DNA from: Halobacterium rubrum
Lineage (GTDB): Archaea; Halobacteriota; Halobacteria; Halobacteriales; Halobacteriaceae
Assembly: GCF_021729015.1 (NCBI RefSeq)
Contig: NZ_JAJQQZ010000001.1
Location: forward strand, 992,001-1,056,000
Length of the DNA stretch: 64,000 nt
Direction of reading: 5' to 3'
The number at the start of each line of letters is the position of its first letter. The first letter of the stretch is position 1. Shown here one piece after another: positions 43,902 through 56,273 of this stretch. A program made the position numbers and the translations under genes. The notes below the pieces were generated by a model. The model was not told the origin of the DNA. It did no database searches and worked only from the letters and a program-made list of their open reading frames with translations.

Positions 43902-45980
43902 TCACGCCGACTCGCCGACCGACGGCTCGGTGCGGTCGACTGCCCGCCTGAGATGGTCCTGCTGGAGGACGAGGCCGTCGGCGTCCTCGGCGTCGAAATC
44001 CGTCTGGCGGAGGTGGTCTTCCATCGCGAGCAGGGCGGCCTCCCGGACGACGCCGGCGAGGTCGCTGCCGGTGTAGCCCGGCGTGGCGTCAGCGAGCGCG
44101 CCGGTGTCGACGCCGCCGCCGGTCGTGACGTCCGCGAGGTGCACGTCGAGGATGGCGGCCCGCGCGTCACGGTCCGGGACCGGGACCTCGACGCGCTTCT
44201 CGATGCGGCCCGGCCGGAGCAGCGCCGGGTCGACGGAGTCCGGGCGGTTCGTCGCCGCGAGCACGGCGACCTCGCCGCGGGCCGAGAGGCCGTCGAGCTC
44301 CGTCAGCAGCTGGGAGACGACGCGCTCTGCGGCGCCGGTGTCGGTGTCGCGGCGGGCCGGCGCGAGCGCGTCCAGTTCGTCGAGGAACACCACCGACGGG
44401 GCGAGCCGACGCGCGCGCTCGAAGAGCTCCCGGACGCCCTTCTCGCTCTCCCCGACGTACCGGTCCATCAGCTCGGGGCCGTCGACGGCCAGAAAGTTCG
44501 CGTTGGTCGACTCGGCGACCGCCTTCGCGAGCATCGTCTTCCCGGTGCCCGGCGGGCCGTAGAGGAGGACGCCGGACGGCGCGTCGGTGTCGAGGCGCTC
44601 GAAGAGGTCGGGGTACCGCTGTGGCCACTCGACGGTGCGCACGACCTCCCGTTTCGCGGGCTCCAGCCCGCCGATGTCGCGGTACGAGACCGACGGGCGC
44701 TCTACCGTGACCTCGCGCAGTGTGGAGGGGCCGACGGCGTCGAGCGCGGCGTCGACGTCCCGGGCCGCGACGACGGGGTCCCGGGCGGCGCTGCGGCCCA
44801 CGGCTCGGGTGGCCGCGTCGACGAGCACGGCTTCGAGGTCGGCGCCGGTGTAGCCGTGGGTCCGGGCGGCGACGGCGTCGAGGTCGACGTCGTCGTCGAT
44901 GCCGACGCCGTCGGCGTGGACGGCCAGGATCTCGCGGCGCGCGTCTGAGCCGGGGACGCCCACGCGCAGTTCACCGTCGAAGCGCCCGCCGCGCCGCAGC
45001 GCCGGGTCGACCGCGTCGGCGCTCGCCGCCTCCCCGACGACCACGAGGTCCTCGCGGTCCCGGACCTGGTCGAGCAGCCAGCCCAGACGGGACTCCGTTC
45101 GCGGGCTCCCGCCGCCACCGGCCTCGGGGTTGGGGGCGGCGGCCGGGAGGTCCTCGACGAACAGCACGGCCGGCGCGTCGTCGCTGGCGGCGCGCAGCAC
45201 GGCAGCCAGCGCGTCACGGTCGCGGGCGTCGACAGGCGTCACCTCGTGAACGGGCAGGCCCGCGCTGTCGGCGACCGTGTGGACGAGCAGCGTCTTCCCG
45301 GTGCCCGCAGGGCCGTGGACGAGCACGCCGGCAGGCGACCGCGCACCGACGTCCTCGAAGGCGTCGTCCACGAGCGGTGCGGCGACGAGCCGGCGGAGGG
45401 TCGCGCGCTCCTCGCGTAGCCCGCCGAGGCCACTCCGTGGACCGTCGGCAGCGGGAACTGGCTCGGCATCAGTTCCGCCGTCCTCGACTGGCTGGAGCGT
45501 CACCGTCGTCTCCGCGGTGGCCGTCACCGGTGAACCGGGCTCGGTCTCGACCACGTCGACGGCAACGACGACGGTCCCGCCGAACAGCCGGACGTTCACA
45601 CGGTCACCGACCGCCAGATGCCGGCCCGCGAGCGCTCGCGCGAGCGCGTCGGCGTCGCCCTCGAGCGCGGACGGCTGGGCGGGCGCGACCACGACTTCGG
45701 CAGCCGGCTCGGGATCGACACGGGCGATAGTGACGGCGTCGGTGTCGCCGACGTTCCGACGGACGTCGTCGCCGGCGAGTGCGCTGTCGGGGCCGAACGC
45801 GTCGCTGTCGGGGCCGACCGCCGCGACGGTGTCGTCGGCACCCTCGACGCGTACGGCGCCGCCGACAGCGACGCCGACGCGCTCCCGGGTCTCGGATGCG
45901 AGCCTGAGCTCCTTACCGTCGACTCCGGTCGCCCCGTCGTCGTTGCTCGAGTCCCGCAGGACCACTCGCGCTCGCGTCAT
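43902..45980 (-). CDS. CDC48-like double AAA ATPase in the bop locus
   Basis: 692 residues. The N-terminal 180 residues resemble a diverged CDC48 N-domain (VVLRDSSNDD, then ALARALAGRHLAVGDRVNVRLFGG). The first AAA domain has Walker A GPAGTGKT (223-230) but an altered Walker B, VLFVEDLP (272-279), where the usual DE is ED, so its hydrolysis may be weak. The second domain is canonical: GPPGTGKT (475-482), VVFLDELDAL, NRPDSVDPALLRPGR. It is much more diverged than the VAT protein at 53994. A UAS-like element lies 61 bp upstream, so a role in the purple-membrane programme is possible. Confidence 0.85.
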   Translation of the reverse strand: MTRARVVLRDSSNDDGATGVDGKELRLASETRERVGVAVGGAVRVEGADDTVAAVGPDSDAFGPDSALAGDDVRRNVGDTDAVTIARVDPEPAAEVVVAPAQPSALEGDADALARALAGRHLAVGDRVNVRLFGGTVVVAVDVVETEPGSPVTATAETTVTLQPVEDGGTDAEPVPAADGPRSGLGGLREERATLRRLVAAPLVDDAFEDVGARSPAGVLVHGPAGTGKTLLVHTVADSAGLPVHEVTPVDARDRDALAAVLRAASDDAPAVLFVEDLPAAAPNPEAGGGGSPRTESRLGWLLDQVRDREDLVVVGEAASADAVDPALRRGGRFDGELRVGVPGSDARREILAVHADGVGIDDDVDLDAVAARTHGYTGADLEAVLVDAATRAVGRSAARDPVVAARDVDAALDAVGPSTLREVTVERPSVSYRDIGGLEPAKREVVRTVEWPQRYPDLFERLDTDAPSGVLLYGPPGTGKTMLAKAVAESTNANFLAVDGPELMDRYVGESEKGVRELFERARRLAPSVVFLDELDALAPARRDTDTGAAERVVSQLLTELDGLSARGEVAVLAATNRPDSVDPALLRPGRIEKRVEVPVPDRDARAAILDVHLADVTTGGGVDTGALADATPGYTGSDLAGVVREAALLAMEDHLRQTDFDAEDADGLVLQQDHLRRAVDRTEPSVGESA

Positions 45981-46667: not shown

Positions 46668-48665
46668 CTATTCTTCGAAGAACGCGCCTACGAGCTTCTG
46701 CTTGGCCGCCTGCAGGTGCTGGTGGTACGTCGACGGCACGATGTCCATCGACTCGGCGAGCTGTTTGCCCTCGGCGCGCCGCGGCCACTCGAAGTAGCCG
46801 CTCACGTACGCCTTCTGCAGCGCCGTGAGCTGGCGGTCGGTGAGTTCGCTGCGGAGCTCCTCCCGGAAGCCGTGGGGGGTCTGCTCGGGGTCGTCCTCGT
46901 GGTACGCGACCAGCTCGACGTCCTCGTAGGTCTCCCGGAGCGCGCTCAGAACGCGCCGGGCGGCGCCCTCCGTGCCGACCCGGACCTCCAGCTCGAGTGT
47001 CGAGCCGTCCGCGCGCATCGACCTCACCCGGCTCCCGAACTCCGAGAGCACGTCGACCAGCGGCGAGTTCTCGAGGCTGAACTGGACGACGCTCTCGTCG
47101 TCCGTCGACACGATTACCTCCGCGTCCAGCACGTCGTCGTAGGCCCGGGCGGCCTCGACGACGGCCTCGGCGTCGTCGTGGGGCGTGCTGACGAGCGTGA
47201 GCACGCCAGGCTCCTGGCTGTCCGCGATGGTGGCTTCCTGCTCGAACGTCGTGTCGACGGCCGCCGCGAGGTCGACCAGGAAGATGTCGTCGTCGGACAG
47301 CTCCACGCCGATGTTCAACACGGTGTCGGTGGCGATGGTGCGTCGCGTCAGCACGTCGTTGATGGACGCCCCGACAGTGCGCCCCAGCGACCGCAACAGG
47401 ACCTGCTCGCGGTCGTCGAGCAGCCGTTCCTCCGTCGCGACGGCGAGCACGCCGTACGTCGTCGAACGGTACGTCAGCGGCACGAGCACGCACCGCTCGC
47501 CGTCTCTCACGCCCGGCAGCGCCTCCGCCTCGTCGACCGTAGTGGCCTCCCGCTTCTCGAGGACCTCCCGGAGCGCGACGACGCACGCCGAGTCCCCGTC
47601 GAGAGAGAGGGTGGTGCCCCCGGCACCCTCGCAGTCGCCCGTCGCCTCCCGCACCTCGACGGTGTTCTCCGTCGCGTCGTACCGGCCGAGCCACGCGCCG
47701 GCGTACTCGCTGCCCGTCCCGACGCGCTCGGCGATGCTGCCCTCGATCTCCTCGCGGTTGTCGGCCCTGACGAGCGCCGACGTGACGTCGTTCACGAGGC
47801 CGTTCACGCGGTCCAGCAGCCGGTCCAGTGACTCGCGCTCGGCCTGCAGGTCCTGCTGGGCTTCCCGCCGCTCGGTGACGTCCATCTGGAAGCCGACGTA
47901 GTGGGAGACGTCGCCGTTCTCGTCGAAGATGGGGCTGATGGTCACCTGGTTCCAGAACAGCGACCCGTCGCGCCGGTAGTTCCGCAGAACGACCTCTGCG
48001 TCCCGCCGCTCGCCGATGGCCTCGCCGAACGCCGCGACCTTCTCCTCGTCGGTCCCCGGCCCCTGCAGGAAGCGGTGGTTCGCCCCGACGACCTCCTCGG
48101 CCGGATACCCCGTGATGTCCTCGAAGGAGTCGTTCATGTAGATGACCGGCTCCTCGGGGTTCTCGGCGTCCGAGATGGTGATGCCGATGGGCGCCTCGTC
48201 GAGCGCCTGCTCCTTGAGGCGGCGCTCGGCCTCCACCGTCAGGTCCGATATCGGCATCCGGGTGTCGCCCTCGGCGGCGTACGTCGGCACAGTGCTGTGG
48301 AGGCGTTCGACGACCGTCTCCGTCGCGTCGGCTGCGAACGACGGGACGAGCCCGGTGGCGTCGGCTTCGACGGCGCGCCGCGCCACCTCGCCGTCGACGG
48401 CCGTCGGCACCAGCACCACCGGCAGTTCGGCGTGTGTCTGTCGGACGGCCTCGAGGAACGCCACGCCGTCGAAGCCGTCGGCGACGTGGACCGCGACCAC
48501 GCAGTCGATGTCCGGGTCGTCCACGCGGTCGCGCGCGGCGACGAAGTCCCGTACCTGTGTCACCTCGAGGCGGTCGTCGTCGGCGAGGCTGCCGGCGGTC
48601 GGACCCGTCTCGGGGTCCTCGCCCGCGAACAGTACGCCGATCGTCTGTGTGTCTGTTGATGTCAT
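46668..48665 (-). CDS. bat: Bacterio-opsin activator Bat
   Basis: 665 residues. Domains in order: a receiver-like part (about 8-125), a PAS domain of LOV type (about 150-275, with GYPAEEVVGANHRFLQGPGTD), a GAF domain (about 285-440), the bacterio-opsin-activator beta domain (about 450-600) and the C-terminal HTH_10 (ELTDRQLTALQKAYVSGYFEWPRR, GKQLAESMDIVPSTYHQHL). Bat activates bop and carotenoid genes in response to low oxygen and light. At the place where LOV domains have the flavin-binding cysteine (NCRFLQ) this protein has His197. It is in an operon with brp, 22 bp apart. Confidence 0.94.
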   Translation of the reverse strand: MTSTDTQTIGVLFAGEDPETGPTAGSLADDDRLEVTQVRDFVAARDRVDDPDIDCVVAVHVADGFDGVAFLEAVRQTHAELPVVLVPTAVDGEVARRAVEADATGLVPSFAADATETVVERLHSTVPTYAAEGDTRMPISDLTVEAERRLKEQALDEAPIGITISDAENPEEPVIYMNDSFEDITGYPAEEVVGANHRFLQGPGTDEEKVAAFGEAIGERRDAEVVLRNYRRDGSLFWNQVTISPIFDENGDVSHYVGFQMDVTERREAQQDLQAERESLDRLLDRVNGLVNDVTSALVRADNREEIEGSIAERVGTGSEYAGAWLGRYDATENTVEVREATGDCEGAGGTTLSLDGDSACVVALREVLEKREATTVDEAEALPGVRDGERCVLVPLTYRSTTYGVLAVATEERLLDDREQVLLRSLGRTVGASINDVLTRRTIATDTVLNIGVELSDDDIFLVDLAAAVDTTFEQEATIADSQEPGVLTLVSTPHDDAEAVVEAARAYDDVLDAEVIVSTDDESVVQFSLENSPLVDVLSEFGSRVRSMRADGSTLELEVRVGTEGAARRVLSALRETYEDVELVAYHEDDPEQTPHGFREELRSELTDRQLTALQKAYVSGYFEWPRRAEGKQLAESMDIVPSTYHQHLQAAKQKLVGAFFEE

Positions 48666-48687: not shown

Positions 48688-49770
48688 TCAGGGGACGTAC
48701 CAGATGCCGCGAGTGCGGTCGAGCCACGCGCCGACCACGACGTGCGGGAGCGCGATGATGCTCACGAAGATGCTCCAGAACGCTACCAGGCCGACGAGCA
48801 GGCCGGCGCCGCCCAGCGGCTGCGGCGACAGCGTCCAGACGACGGCGGCCAACCCGAACGTGGCGACGCTTCCGACCACCAGCACGCCCCACGACGCCAG
48901 CGTGACGCGCTTCGGGTCGTCGGAGTCCAGCGCGTCCAGCAGGCCGCCGTCGTGGTCGTCCGGGTCGACTGCCGGCTCGTCGACGGCCGTCGAGCGCGCC
49001 ACCTGCCGGGCCGAGTACCACAGCGGGAAGTACAGGCCGACCGCGACCACGACGGGGACGATAGCGAAGTACGCGACGAGCAGCAGCGTCTCTGCGGCGT
49101 CCGCGAGGAACGAGCCCGTGCCGGCCGACCGGTGGTAGCCGAGCACGAGGTGCGCGACCAGGAGGCTGCCGAACCCGGCCCCGAGGTAGAGCCGGCTGGT
49201 CGCGGGGTCGCCGGCGACAGCCGACAGTGCCCCCGGCTCGAAGATGTTCACCATCACGGCGCTGAACGCGTAGAAGGTGTCCGTCCAGAACACCATCGGC
49301 ACCACCATCACGGCGCCGCCGCGCACGACGGCGGCCAGCCAGCGCTGCAGGCGCGTCCGCAAGTGGTCAGTCCCGTACAGGGCCTCCATGGACTGGACGC
49401 CGCCGAACCCGCCTTTCGCGACGGCGACGCTCACTGCGAGCGCGAGTCCGGCTACCGGCGCGACGAAGAACAGCGCCACGAACAGCGTGATGCCCACGAG
49501 GTACGTCACGACGTACGTCCCCTGGAAGGACGTCGCCCGCCGCCGCAGGTTCTCGAAGTGCTCGTAGCCGCCGTGCGGGAGATTCATCGCGACCATCCCC
49601 AGCAGGTAGACGCCGGCCTGTACCCGGAGCGGCACCGATAGCCCGGCCAGCCGCCCGACGCCGAACGCGGCGGCGACCACCACCAGCGACAGCCGGGACG
49701 CCGTCAGTGGCAGGCCGCCGGCGGCGTTCGGGACGAGCCACGCTGGGCCGAACTGCGACTCGTTGCTCAT
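48688..49770 (-). CDS. brp: Beta-carotene 15,15'-dioxygenase-like protein Brp
   Basis: 360 residues from the ATG at 49770; the ATG ten codons upstream is less likely. It is an integral membrane protein with about eight helices. Brp/Blh proteins are needed to convert beta-carotene to retinal. The conserved histidines appear in AMNLPHGGYEHFENL (His66, His71), VLGYHRSAG and SIIALPHVVVGAW (His343), fitting an iron site. A long acidic cytoplasmic loop (DEPAVDPDDHDGGLLDALDSDD) is an insert near residue 265. First gene of the brp-bat operon, divergent from brz. Confidence 0.94.
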   Translation of the reverse strand: MSNESQFGPAWLVPNAAGGLPLTASRLSLVVVAAAFGVGRLAGLSVPLRVQAGVYLLGMVAMNLPHGGYEHFENLRRRATSFQGTYVVTYLVGITLFVALFFVAPVAGLALAVSVAVAKGGFGGVQSMEALYGTDHLRTRLQRWLAAVVRGGAVMVVPMVFWTDTFYAFSAVMVNIFEPGALSAVAGDPATSRLYLGAGFGSLLVAHLVLGYHRSAGTGSFLADAAETLLLVAYFAIVPVVVAVGLYFPLWYSARQVARSTAVDEPAVDPDDHDGGLLDALDSDDPKRVTLASWGVLVVGSVATFGLAAVVWTLSPQPLGGAGLLVGLVAFWSIFVSIIALPHVVVGAWLDRTRGIWYVP

Positions 49771-49805
49771 GCTGCATACGTTGTCTCGTGCCAGCATCAA
49801 AAAAG

Positions 49806-49870: not shown

Positions 49871-50056
49871 GTGCCGATCACCGAACTTCAGTGTCCGCGG
49901 TGCGGGACGGAGGTCAAGATGGGGCTGCCGATGGGAGCGACTGTGAAATCCGTCACCGCCGCCGAGGAGCCGGAGCCATCCGACGACGACGGGAAGAAAC
50001 TGCGGGCGCTGCGCTGCCGGAACGACCACGAGTTCGCCGTCGTCTTCGAGTTGTGA
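49871..50056 (+). CDS. brz: Bacteriorhodopsin-regulating zinc-finger protein Brz
   Basis: 61 residues from the GTG at 49871. It begins PITELQCPRCGTEVKMG and ends LRALRCRNDHEFAVVFEL: two metal-binding pairs, CPRC and C-x3-H, make a single small zinc finger. In H. salinarum the protein encoded at this position between brp and bop is needed for expression of bop and crtB1. Same position, size and finger pattern support the name. A 4-bp overlap (GTGA) couples it to the next tiny gene. Confidence 0.88.
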   Translation: MPITELQCPRCGTEVKMGLPMGATVKSVTAAEEPEPSDDDGKKLRALRCRNDHEFAVVFEL

Positions 50057-53993: not shown

Positions 53994-56273
53994 CTACTGG
54001 AACGCGCCGGGCTTGGGGTCGTCGTCCGCCGGCGTTTCGGCGGAGTTGAACTGCTGTTCGATCTCCTCGTACTCTTCTTTGACGTCCTCGTCGACGCTCG
54101 GCGTCACCTCGTCGAGGGCGTCCTCGAAGTGCTGCATAGTCACGCGGACGTTTCCGACGGATTCGGCTGCCTCGTCGGCGTCGACGGAGTTGACGAACTC
54201 ACGGGTGGCGTTCATCGTGGCCTCGCGGACGAGCGCTTCGACGTCGGCACCGACGAAGCCGTCCATGCGGTCGGCGACCGCGTCGAGGTCGACGTCGTCG
54301 GCGAGCGGCTTGTCCCGCGTGTGGACCTCGAGGATGGCGCGGCGGGCGTCGGCGTCCGGCACCGGCACGTGGACGTGGCGGTCCAGGCGGCCCGGGCGCA
54401 GCAGCGCGCTGTCGATGAGGTCCGGCCGGTTCGAGGTGGCGACGACGACGACGTCCTCGAGGGCTTCGATGCCGTCGAGTTCGGTGAGCAGCTGGGAGAC
54501 GACGCGTTCGCCGACGCCCGAGTCACTGCTGGTGCGGCCGCGTTCGCCGGCGATGGCGTCGATCTCGTCGAAGAACACCACCGTCGGAGCGTTCGAGCGG
54601 GCCTTCTCGAAGACCTCGCGGACGCCCTTCTCGGACTCCCCGACGTACTTGTTGAGGAGCTCGGGGCCCTTCACGGAGATGAAGTTCGAGTTGGCCTCGT
54701 TGGCGACGGCTTTCGCCAGCAGCGTCTTCCCGGTACCGGGCGGGCCGTACAGCAGGACGCCTTTCGCGGACTGGAGGTCCATCGCGTCGAAGACCTCGGG
54801 GTAGTCCAGCGGCCACTGGATGGTCTCGCGGAGGCGTTCTTTGGTGTCCCCGAGGCCGCCGACGTCCTCCCAGGTGACGTCTGGGACTTCGACGAAGACC
54901 TCGCGGAGCGCGGACGGCTCGATGCCCTTCAGCGCCTGCTTGAAGTCGGTCTCGGTGACTTTGATGGACTCCAGCAGCTCCGCGTCGATCTCGTCGGACT
55001 CGAGGTCGATATTCGGTCGGACGCGGCGCAGCGCGTTCATCGCGGCCTCCTTCGCGAGGCTCTCGATGTCGGCGCCGACGAAGCCGTGGGTGCTCTCGGC
55101 GTACTCGTCGAGGTCGATTCCCTCGGCGAGCGGCATGCCGCGCGTGTGGACCTGCATGATCTCTTTGCGGCCCTCCTGGTCCGGAACGCCGATCTCGATT
55201 TCGCGGTCGAAGCGACCGCCGCGGCGGAGTGCGGGGTCGATGGCGTCGACACGGTTCGTCGCCGCGATGACGGTGACGTCACCGCGCTCTTCGAGGCCGT
55301 CCATCAGGCTCAGCAGCTGGGCGACGACGCGGCGCTCCACGTCGCCCTGGGTCTCGCCGCGCTTGGGCGCGATGGAGTCCAGTTCGTCGACGAAGACGAT
55401 GGCGGGCGTGTTCTCCTCTGCCTCGTCGAAGACCTCGCGGAGCTTCTCCTCGCTCTCGCCGTAGTACTTCGACATGATCTCCGGCCCGGAGATGGTCTGG
55501 AAGTGGGCGTCGATCTCGTTGGCGACGGCCTTCGCGATGAGCGTCTTCCCGGTGCCGGGCGGGCCGTGCAGGAGCACGCCCTTCGGCGGTTCGATGCCGA
55601 GCTGCTGGAAGAGCTCGGGGTGGCGCATCGGGAGCTCGATCATCTCCCGGACCTGTTCGAGTTCGCGGTCGAGGCCGCCGATGTCCTCGTAGGTGACGTT
55701 CGGCGTGGCGTCACCGCCTTCCGGGGATTCGCCGGCGCCCGGCGCGATCTCTTCGGCCGGCCGTTCGGACACCTGAATCTCGGTGTCGTTGCTGACGACG
55801 ACCGTGCCCTCGGGCTCGGTCTCCGCGACCTTCACGGGAATCTGCTGGCCGGAGATGGTGCTCATGCCGCCGAACCCGAACGAGATGGGGATGGTCTGGC
55901 CGGCGGTGACCGGGCGGCCACTGAGGCGGTCCCGGACCATCGGCGCGATGTTCCCGCGCACGCGGAGGTTCTGCGGGAGCGCGACGGTGATGGCGGCCGC
56001 GGGCTTGATATCGGCGGGCTCGACGGTCACCTTGTCGTCGATGCCGACGTCGGCCTCCTGCCGGAGGCGGCCGTCGATGCGCACGATGCCCTCGCCGTCG
56101 TCCTCGGGGTAGCCGGGCCACACGCGGGCGACCGCTCGGCCCTGGTCGTTGCGGCCCTCGACGACGACGTAGTCGCCGTTCTCGAGGTCCAGCTCCTCCA
56201 TGGACTTGCGGTCGACGGCGGCGAGGCCGCGACCGGCGTCCTTCTGCTTGAGGGGTTTGACGGTGAGTTTCAT
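53994..56273 (-). CDS. cdc48: CDC48/VAT-type AAA ATPase (unfoldase)
   Basis: 759 residues. The N-terminal double-psi barrel and four-stranded domain (1-185, [32 protein letters not shown]) are followed by two full AAA modules. D1 has Walker A GPPGTGKT at 237-244 and Walker B IVFVDELD at 292-299. D2 has Walker A at 510-517 with [10 protein letters not shown]. The C-terminus ([21 protein letters not shown] region) is acidic and extended. It unfolds proteins for the proteasome in archaea. Its ATG overlaps the stop of the small gene at 56270 by 4 bp, so the two are co-translated. Confidence 0.96.

Follow-up and report, generated by a model that had tools for sequence, protein, structure and literature searches.

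A histidine at the adduct-cysteine position of the LOV-type domain of Bat in haloarchaeal bacteriorhodopsin gene clusters

In Halobacterium salinarum, Bat mediates the induction of bop by low oxygen and light (PMC3184054, PMC2253796). A direct light response of Bat is described as one that "has not been definitively established" (PMC4682037). A first-pass annotation of a 64,000-nucleotide stretch of Halobacterium rubrum DNA (the window) drew attention to a Bat with a LOV-type domain in which histidine replaces the cysteine that bonds to flavin, and proposed that such a domain, if it still binds flavin, cannot form the normal adduct and may sense redox state rather than blue light. Is this histidine a property of the family, where did it come from, and what could a domain of this kind do at a bacteriorhodopsin locus? 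The basic idea is largely in print already: Losi et al. 2014 (PMC4844311) stated that H. salinarum Bat has no reactive cysteine, and Yee et al. 2015 (PMC4682037) counted about 70 LOV-like entries that lack the cysteine, the natural replacements including Ala, His and Pro. A 2025 survey of 28 archaeal LOV domains (PMC12202551) reports two with Pro and one with Phe at the cysteine place, and we found no mention of His there in the portions of the survey available to us. Within the open-licence literature on Bat and LOV, flavin or cysteine-less LOV domains, we found no study of flavin binding by, or the spectrum of, a His-type Bat domain. What we add is the conservation of the histidine, its origin from a cysteine ancestor among brp-linked Bats, a separate loss of cysteine to proline, and the loss of an arginine common to both clades.

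The Bat gene of the window and its LOV-type domain

The source genome (3.07 Mb) belongs to the same genus as the H. salinarum genome in our set (G018). The features of the locus are as follows.

46668..48665, minus strand: bat (bacterio-opsin activator), 665 aa; from the ORF, its translation and Pfam matches to BAT, HTH_10, GAF_2 and PAS_9
47763..48254, minus strand: LOV-type domain with flanking helices, residues 138-301; from YtvA-family and PAS_9 matches, AlphaFold2 and a PDB search
48077-48075, minus strand: codon CAC, encoding His197 where LOV domains have the adduct cysteine
48024..48026, minus strand: codon of Gly214, which takes the place of the second FMN-phosphate arginine (R70 of PpSB1-LOV, cysteine +17; arginine cluster from PMC5314338)
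Bat residues 161-265: PAS_9 (Pfam)
47361..47732, minus strand: GAF_2, residues 312-435 (Pfam)
46863..47327, minus strand: BAT domain, residues 447-601 (Pfam)
46689..46844, minus strand: HTH_10 DNA-binding domain, residues 608-659 (Pfam)
48688..49800, minus strand: brp, for retinal synthesis, immediately upstream of bat; the coordinates are those of the longest ORF, the true start being probably internal
49871..50056, plus strand: brz, encoding a small zinc-ribbon protein and placed between brp and bop; 61 codons plus stop, with an uncertain start codon; Pfam Zn_ribbon_Brz, 74.6 bits
50320..51108, plus strand: bop, bacteriorhodopsin; from the ORF
43902..45980, minus strand: Cdc48-type AAA ATPase of the bop cluster; from the ORF and Pfam matches to AAA and CDC48_2

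Judged by its domains and neighbours, the gene at 46668-48665 is the Bat of the known bop cluster. BAT and HTH_10 domains form its C terminus and are preceded by GAF and PAS domains (Pfam), and the gene is adjoined by brp, brz and bop. The N terminus scored 24.3 bits against Response_reg (Pfam), under the cut-off of 30.2, and the best NCBIfam partial match of the protein was to the YtvA blue-light receptor family (145 bits, under the full-length cut-off of 250). The brp product matches the Pfam beta-carotene 15,15'-dioxygenase family with 240.8 bits (for 48688-49734) and is 81% identical to the Brp that adjoins bat in H. salinarum, while the position and size of brz agree with the description of H. 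salinarum Brz in PMC2253796. The bop product keeps the proton-pump residues R82, D85, T89, D96, D115, E204, D212 and K216. The Cdc48-type ATPase of the cluster has been named bac (PMC1885257); another ATPase of this type, 40% identical to it, lies at 54087-56051 on the minus strand of the window.

The LOV motif of this Bat reads G-A-N-H197-R-F-L-Q-G, with histidine in place of the adduct Cys of the canonical GxNCRFLQ. Translation and codon bear out the ORF, NHRFLQ motif and His197 of the first-pass annotation, and since no thiol is present where the adduct forms, the normal cysteinyl-flavin adduct would not be expected, as it had argued. The other signature residues are all present (G194, N196, R198, F199, L200, Q201, N229, N239 and Q260). 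These correspond to the set given for LOV* domains in PMC4682037, namely the equivalents of G59, N61, R63, F64, L65, Q66, N94, N104 and Q123 in YtvA numbering without an adduct cysteine, so that the domain qualifies as a LOV* by sequence. An AlphaFold2 model of residues 138-301, built from an alignment of 20 sequences, has a mean pLDDT of 87. When it was used to search the PDB, all 50 matches listed were LOV domains or LOV chimeras, the best being MrLOV (9vf7) with a TM-score by target of 0.91; fold, motif and signature residues together uphold the assignment to the LOV type. In the model, a helix at domain residues 127-163 follows the LOV core and leads to the GAF, BAT and HTH domains.

That a regulator responsive to oxygen has a conserved histidine in its PAS domain could also suggest an oxygen sensor of the haem- or metal-PAS kind, with His197 as ligand. 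In FixL and DosP, however, the haem histidine sits on the next helix. His197 begins a short helix (model residues 60-63), and the helix after it has no conserved histidine in the 13 His-type Bats described below; moreover, the flavin residues are kept, and the 50 structure matches listed were all flavin LOV domains or chimeras of them. We regard a haem or metal ligand role for His197 as highly improbable.

Distribution and origin of the histidine

Protein searches covered 391 haloarchaeal genomes and then 170, 26 and 146 genomes of three families, which overlap the first set. They recovered 14 Bat proteins of the window's clade, from 14 genomes, of which 13 (the window's included) have His at the cysteine position and one has Leu. 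His197 is therefore not an isolated case, and its recurrence in 13 of 14 clade members rules out chance or sequencing error as its source. Among named contigs, the His motif is found in H. salinarum DSM 3754, Haloplanus ruber, Halohasta salina, Haloarcula rara and strain SHRA6. The Leu protein (L116:2783-4747) comes from genome G399, which is 83% complete with 6% contamination; unless this gene is a decaying copy, it means that members of the wider clade can do without His. The 19 loci ranked next in the 391-genome search (L019-L037) all have Cys.

The pattern GxN[x]RFLQG, with the codon at the variable place not starting in T, gave 89 matches in 67 of the 391 genomes, which we tallied by eye as 70 Pro, 12 His, 2 Ser, 2 Thr, 1 Asp, 1 Ile and 1 Arg. 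As a control, the reversed pattern matched once in 391 genomes; with Cys at the variable place, the pattern matched in 308 of them. The Asp match (G298), with no LOV match in the surrounding stretch (L183), is probably a chance occurrence. Eleven of the 12 His matches are Bat. The twelfth (L182:5951-9490, genome G287) lies in an unrelated 1180-residue histidine kinase with receiver, GAF and PAS domains that has kept the second arginine discussed below, and to judge from its sequence its histidine arose independently of that in Bat.

Other LOV domains came to light in these searches. The window's genome encodes a second one with the canonical Cys (LGSNCRFLQGD; G000:C4:4438-5214, in L002, ORF 331-2514), within a protein of 727 aa that combines a histidine-kinase ATPase domain with several PAS domains. 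A Pro-type LOV domain forms part of a large protein, 1490 aa long in L187, whose DNA is 82-96% identical over 1-3 kb among L187, L151, L152, L158, L149 and L168, in genomes of four genera and two families; this similarity suggests that a cysteine-less Pro-type LOV protein has moved by transfer among haloarchaea.

We surveyed the neighbours of 43 Bats (13 His, 10 Pro, 7 sister Cys, 12 further Cys and 1 Leu) in stretches of up to 17 kb, some of them ending at contig ends; 11 further loci were set aside, as they hold other cysteine-less LOV proteins or none. A rhodopsin gene lies near 10 of the 13 His-Bats, nine encoding proteins 76-100% identical to the window's (the window included) and one, at L117, a protein 36% identical; H. 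salinarum is among the three His loci without one, because its contig begins there. brp is present at 10 His loci, with a fragment at one more, and the ATPase at 9 (window included). The ten Pro-Bats, all from one genus (g9, which we infer to be Halorubrum), have a rhodopsin of 57-61% identity in 8 cases, brp in 9 and the ATPase in 8. All seven sister Cys-Bats (genera g30 and g40, family f2) have a brp whose product is 55-64% identical, and four have a rhodopsin of 44-47% identity; the 12 further Cys-Bats have a rhodopsin of 47-51% identity in five stretches and none in seven. brp is also present at the Leu locus.

Taken from the side of the rhodopsin, the 17 Bat stretches whose rhodopsin shares 57% identity or more with that of the window all hold cysteine-less Bats, whereas the rhodopsins near nine Cys-type Bats are 44-51% identical to it. 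This pattern is suggestive of cysteine loss tracking linkage to bacteriorhodopsin, although it is confounded by there being just two or three clades, and the His-Bat of L117 has just the 36% rhodopsin. Four His loci carry a second rhodopsin, 33-48% identical, beyond the ATPase (L110:12588-13292, L111:12703-13422, L113:3534-4247 and L115:12869-13603). Three of these second rhodopsins have Gly or Val for the proton donor D96, and that of L115 differs at 4 of the 8 key sites, the retinal lysine included (Thr).

The spacing of brp and bat also varies. In the window, H. salinarum and L117 the two genes are 26-157 bases apart; seven of the ten brp-bearing His loci, the Leu locus and every one of the seven sister Cys loci have a gap of 1.55-1.73 kb. 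At nine loci where we read that gap (L107, L110, L111, L115, L116, L118, L119, L120 and L125; 5 His, 1 Leu and 3 Cys), it holds a desaturase-like gene of 505-543 aa, judged from sequence to be of CrtI type; two of the nine were searched, and both match the Pfam flavin amine oxidoreductase family. This gene is missing in the window.

In a tree of the 43 Bat proteins, computed from the LOV domain to the HTH with the two trait columns excluded, the 13 His-Bats and the Leu-Bat form one clade (support 100/99). The seven sister Cys-Bats adjoin it (100/96 for all 21), and the ten Pro-Bats lie far from the His clade (100/100), so that the states on the tree need three changes. A single origin of all cysteine-less Bats was rejected by the AU test (p-AU 0.011, 43 rows). 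In view of a warning from the tree software about long branches meeting at L137 and the Pro clade, we made a second run without the long or half-empty rows L117, L130, L134 and L137; a single origin was again rejected (p-AU 0.00024, 39 rows), and the His-plus-sister group had a support of 100/99.8. The His clade also held together in a tree of 105 LOV domains alone (SH-aLRT 99), in which, with few columns, the sister was not resolved; 16 of the 18 bacterial domains in that tree have Cys.

The first-pass annotation had named, as evidence that would tell against it, a lack of cysteine here in every Bat homologue. A comparison of this position across Bats disposes of that idea, as Cys is present in 7 of 7 sister Bats behind brp. 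Most simply, then, the alignments and trees suggest that Cys was ancestral in Bat and changed to His (then once to Leu) and separately to Pro, the rooting being based on how widely Cys occurs. Yee et al. ask whether ancestral LOV domains were cysteine-less redox sensors (PMC4682037); for LOV evolution, the Bat data would most simply point the opposite way, to a cysteine-less state derived from a Cys ancestor.

Flavin binding, redox and light

A second position, 17 residues past the cysteine, bears on whether flavin is bound. In PpSB1-LOV it is occupied by R70, which belongs to the phosphate-binding arginine cluster (PMC5314338). It is Gly, Ala, Ser or Trp in all 13 His-Bats and Gly, Ala or Ser in all 10 Pro-Bats, and Arg in 7 of 7 sister Cys-Bats; by these counts, the cysteine-less Bats of the two clades hold one cluster arginine against two in their Cys sisters. 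The Leu-Bat retains the arginine; it has Ser at the second flavin asparagine (the N239 equivalent). Outside these groups, Arg or Lys is found in 49 of 56 other Cys LOV domains (7 have neither), and Arg is kept in 13 of 17 Pro domains outside the Pro-Bat clade. A general coupling of cysteine loss with loss of this arginine was unsupported by an independent-pairs test on the 105 LOV domains (median p 1), in which just 4 pairs on starred branches were possible and the arginine went neither way. On the alignment, then, arginine loss is claimed only for the His and Pro clades of Bat.

With the second phosphate arginine absent from all 13 His-Bats, flavin affinity may be low or absent, and one may ask whether the domain is vestigial, its flavin binding lost along with the cysteine and the arginine and its PAS fold left only to transmit or to bind some other ligand. 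The joint absence of the two residues in both clades fits this reading, as does the modest flavin held, as purified, by the Pro-type domain of Halorubrum hochstenium, BAT-LOV* (PMC4682037). However, the flavin-contacting equivalents of R198, Q201, N229, N239 and Q260 are unchanged in 13 of 13 His-Bats, which is unexpected under relaxed selection, and BAT-LOV*, whose clade shows the same arginine loss, can be reconstituted with FAD, FMN or riboflavin (PMC4682037). The notion that no Bat homologue binds flavin, which the first-pass annotation had weighed against its own proposal, fails on the same evidence. Flavin loading is also known to differ strongly between two proteins with identical sets of four arginines (PMC5314338). 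We consider an apo domain decidedly unlikely.

BAT-LOV* is also the nearest guide to what a cysteine-less Bat domain can do. It is photoreduced slowly, is fully reduced chemically, and shifts conformation on reduction (PMC4682037). Its Pro-to-Cys mutant forms no adduct (Yee 2015, PMC4682037), which means that this residue is not the only difference in the pocket of the Pro clade. Changing its W172 to Phe, atop two Tyr changes, restores photoreduction (PMC4682037). All ten members of the Pro clade agree with BAT-LOV* at its residues Y163, W172, P188, Y247 and N252; at the same places the window's Bat has E172, F181, H197, Y256 and M261. As Phe is thus already present at the Trp172 place, the window's domain may photoreduce if flavin is bound.

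These data bear on how strictly redox can be set against light. The absence of an adduct thiol stands, and the first-pass proposal of redox rather than blue light is too strict as an either/or, because cysteine-less LOV domains can photoreduce and signal: cysteine-less VVD and YF1 do so via the neutral semiquinone (PMC4682037). By analogy, a light response of the window's Bat is possible if flavin is bound. One could go further and give blue light the main role in the His-type domain: photoreduction to the neutral semiquinone would generate the signal, and chemical redox sensing would come second. Besides the photoreduction of cysteine-less LOV domains, this would account for the response of bop and brp to light in H. 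salinarum (PMC3184054, PMC2253796); it would suit a pocket that has Phe181 and Glu172 at two places where aromatics were mutated in the Pro type, although Y256 is kept at the third; and the exact GxNCRFLQG motif was not found in the draft genome of H. salinarum (G018), where Bat is the only LOV match at E<=1e-20. On the other hand, light induction may come via the rhodopsins or the energy state, and published genetics firmly link Bat with oxygen (Gropp and Betlach 1994, cited in PMC2253796). In two cases without an adduct, light efficiency was lower, VVD-III having a relative efficiency of 0.11 and YF1 H22P:C62A being less light-sensitive (PMC4682037). We think it unlikely that blue light is the main input.

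The reading that we favour, with moderate confidence and by analogy with these proteins, is that the Bat of the bop cluster has a flavin-binding LOV-type domain without adduct chemistry that would act as an integrator of flavin redox state and light, with His197 as a possible proton donor to N5. The domain would bind FMN, FAD or riboflavin, as we infer for the His type, less tightly than a photoreceptor does. The signal would be flavin reduction and N5 protonation, brought about by cellular reductants at low oxygen or by light-driven photoreduction. Reduced flavin would alter the hydrogen bonding of Q260 and then the outer sheet and the following helix, which would pass the signal to the GAF, BAT and HTH domains, and bop and its partners would presumably be activated. 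Four positions (I160, V226, R232 and M261) are fixed in at least 12 of the 13 His-Bats and differ from the sister Cys-Bats; the V226 equivalent is Glu in 7 of 7 sisters, and M261 adjoins Q260. From the alternation of residues along a strand, V226 and M261 should point away from the flavin, toward the face of the sheet by which LOV domains usually pass on their signal.

His197 may take part directly, donating a proton to flavin N5 and so stabilising the neutral semiquinone or speeding protonation. It sits at one of two places whose side chain can reach N5: besides the cysteine position, only the conserved Gln was judged suitably placed for a proton donor (PMC5645311). The argument draws on an engineered protein, iLOV, which was made photoreducible by one added proton donor beside the flavin (Q489D; PMC5645311), and His197 could merely fill or block the pocket.

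A bolder form of this reading, which we put forward tentatively, is that an adduct-forming receptor at bacteriorhodopsin loci was converted twice, independently, into a cysteine-less integrator of flavin redox state and light, the cysteine loss being derived and no relic of a cysteine-less LOV ancestor such as has been suggested in print. His would be a built-in N5 proton donor, taking over from the thiol, and the neutral semiquinone itself would be the physiological signal by which low oxygen and light bring about purple-membrane synthesis. Cys, His and Pro are three natural states of one Bat domain, the Cys and His forms lying directly or one gene behind brp, and swaps or point mutants can thus separate light from redox input.

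Comparison with known systems

The closest known system is the Bat of H. salinarum (OE3101R, VNG1464G; L106). It is the same gene, directly behind brp and with the same NHRFLQ motif, and the window's protein is 68% identical to it in the N-terminal part, 81% in the LOV domain and 76% in the C-terminal part; the species is another, and the second-arginine position is Trp there and Gly in the window. BAT-LOV* of Halorubrum hochstenium shares the cysteine-less LOV domain and the Bat architecture, and the Pro clade that it matches is also without the second arginine (10 of 10). It differs in having Pro for His and Trp172 for Phe, and its cysteine was, by the tree, lost separately. The Cys-type Bats of g30 and g40, from the family of Haloarcula rara, occupy the same place relative to brp, with LOV domains 55-59% identical and, in the two that were read, the same domains; unlike the window's Bat, they have the adduct Cys and the second Arg (7 of 7). 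Finally, the fold and the pocket residues are common to this domain and to those of YtvA and MrLOV (PDB 2pr5 and 9vf7), whereas the adduct-forming cysteine is theirs only.
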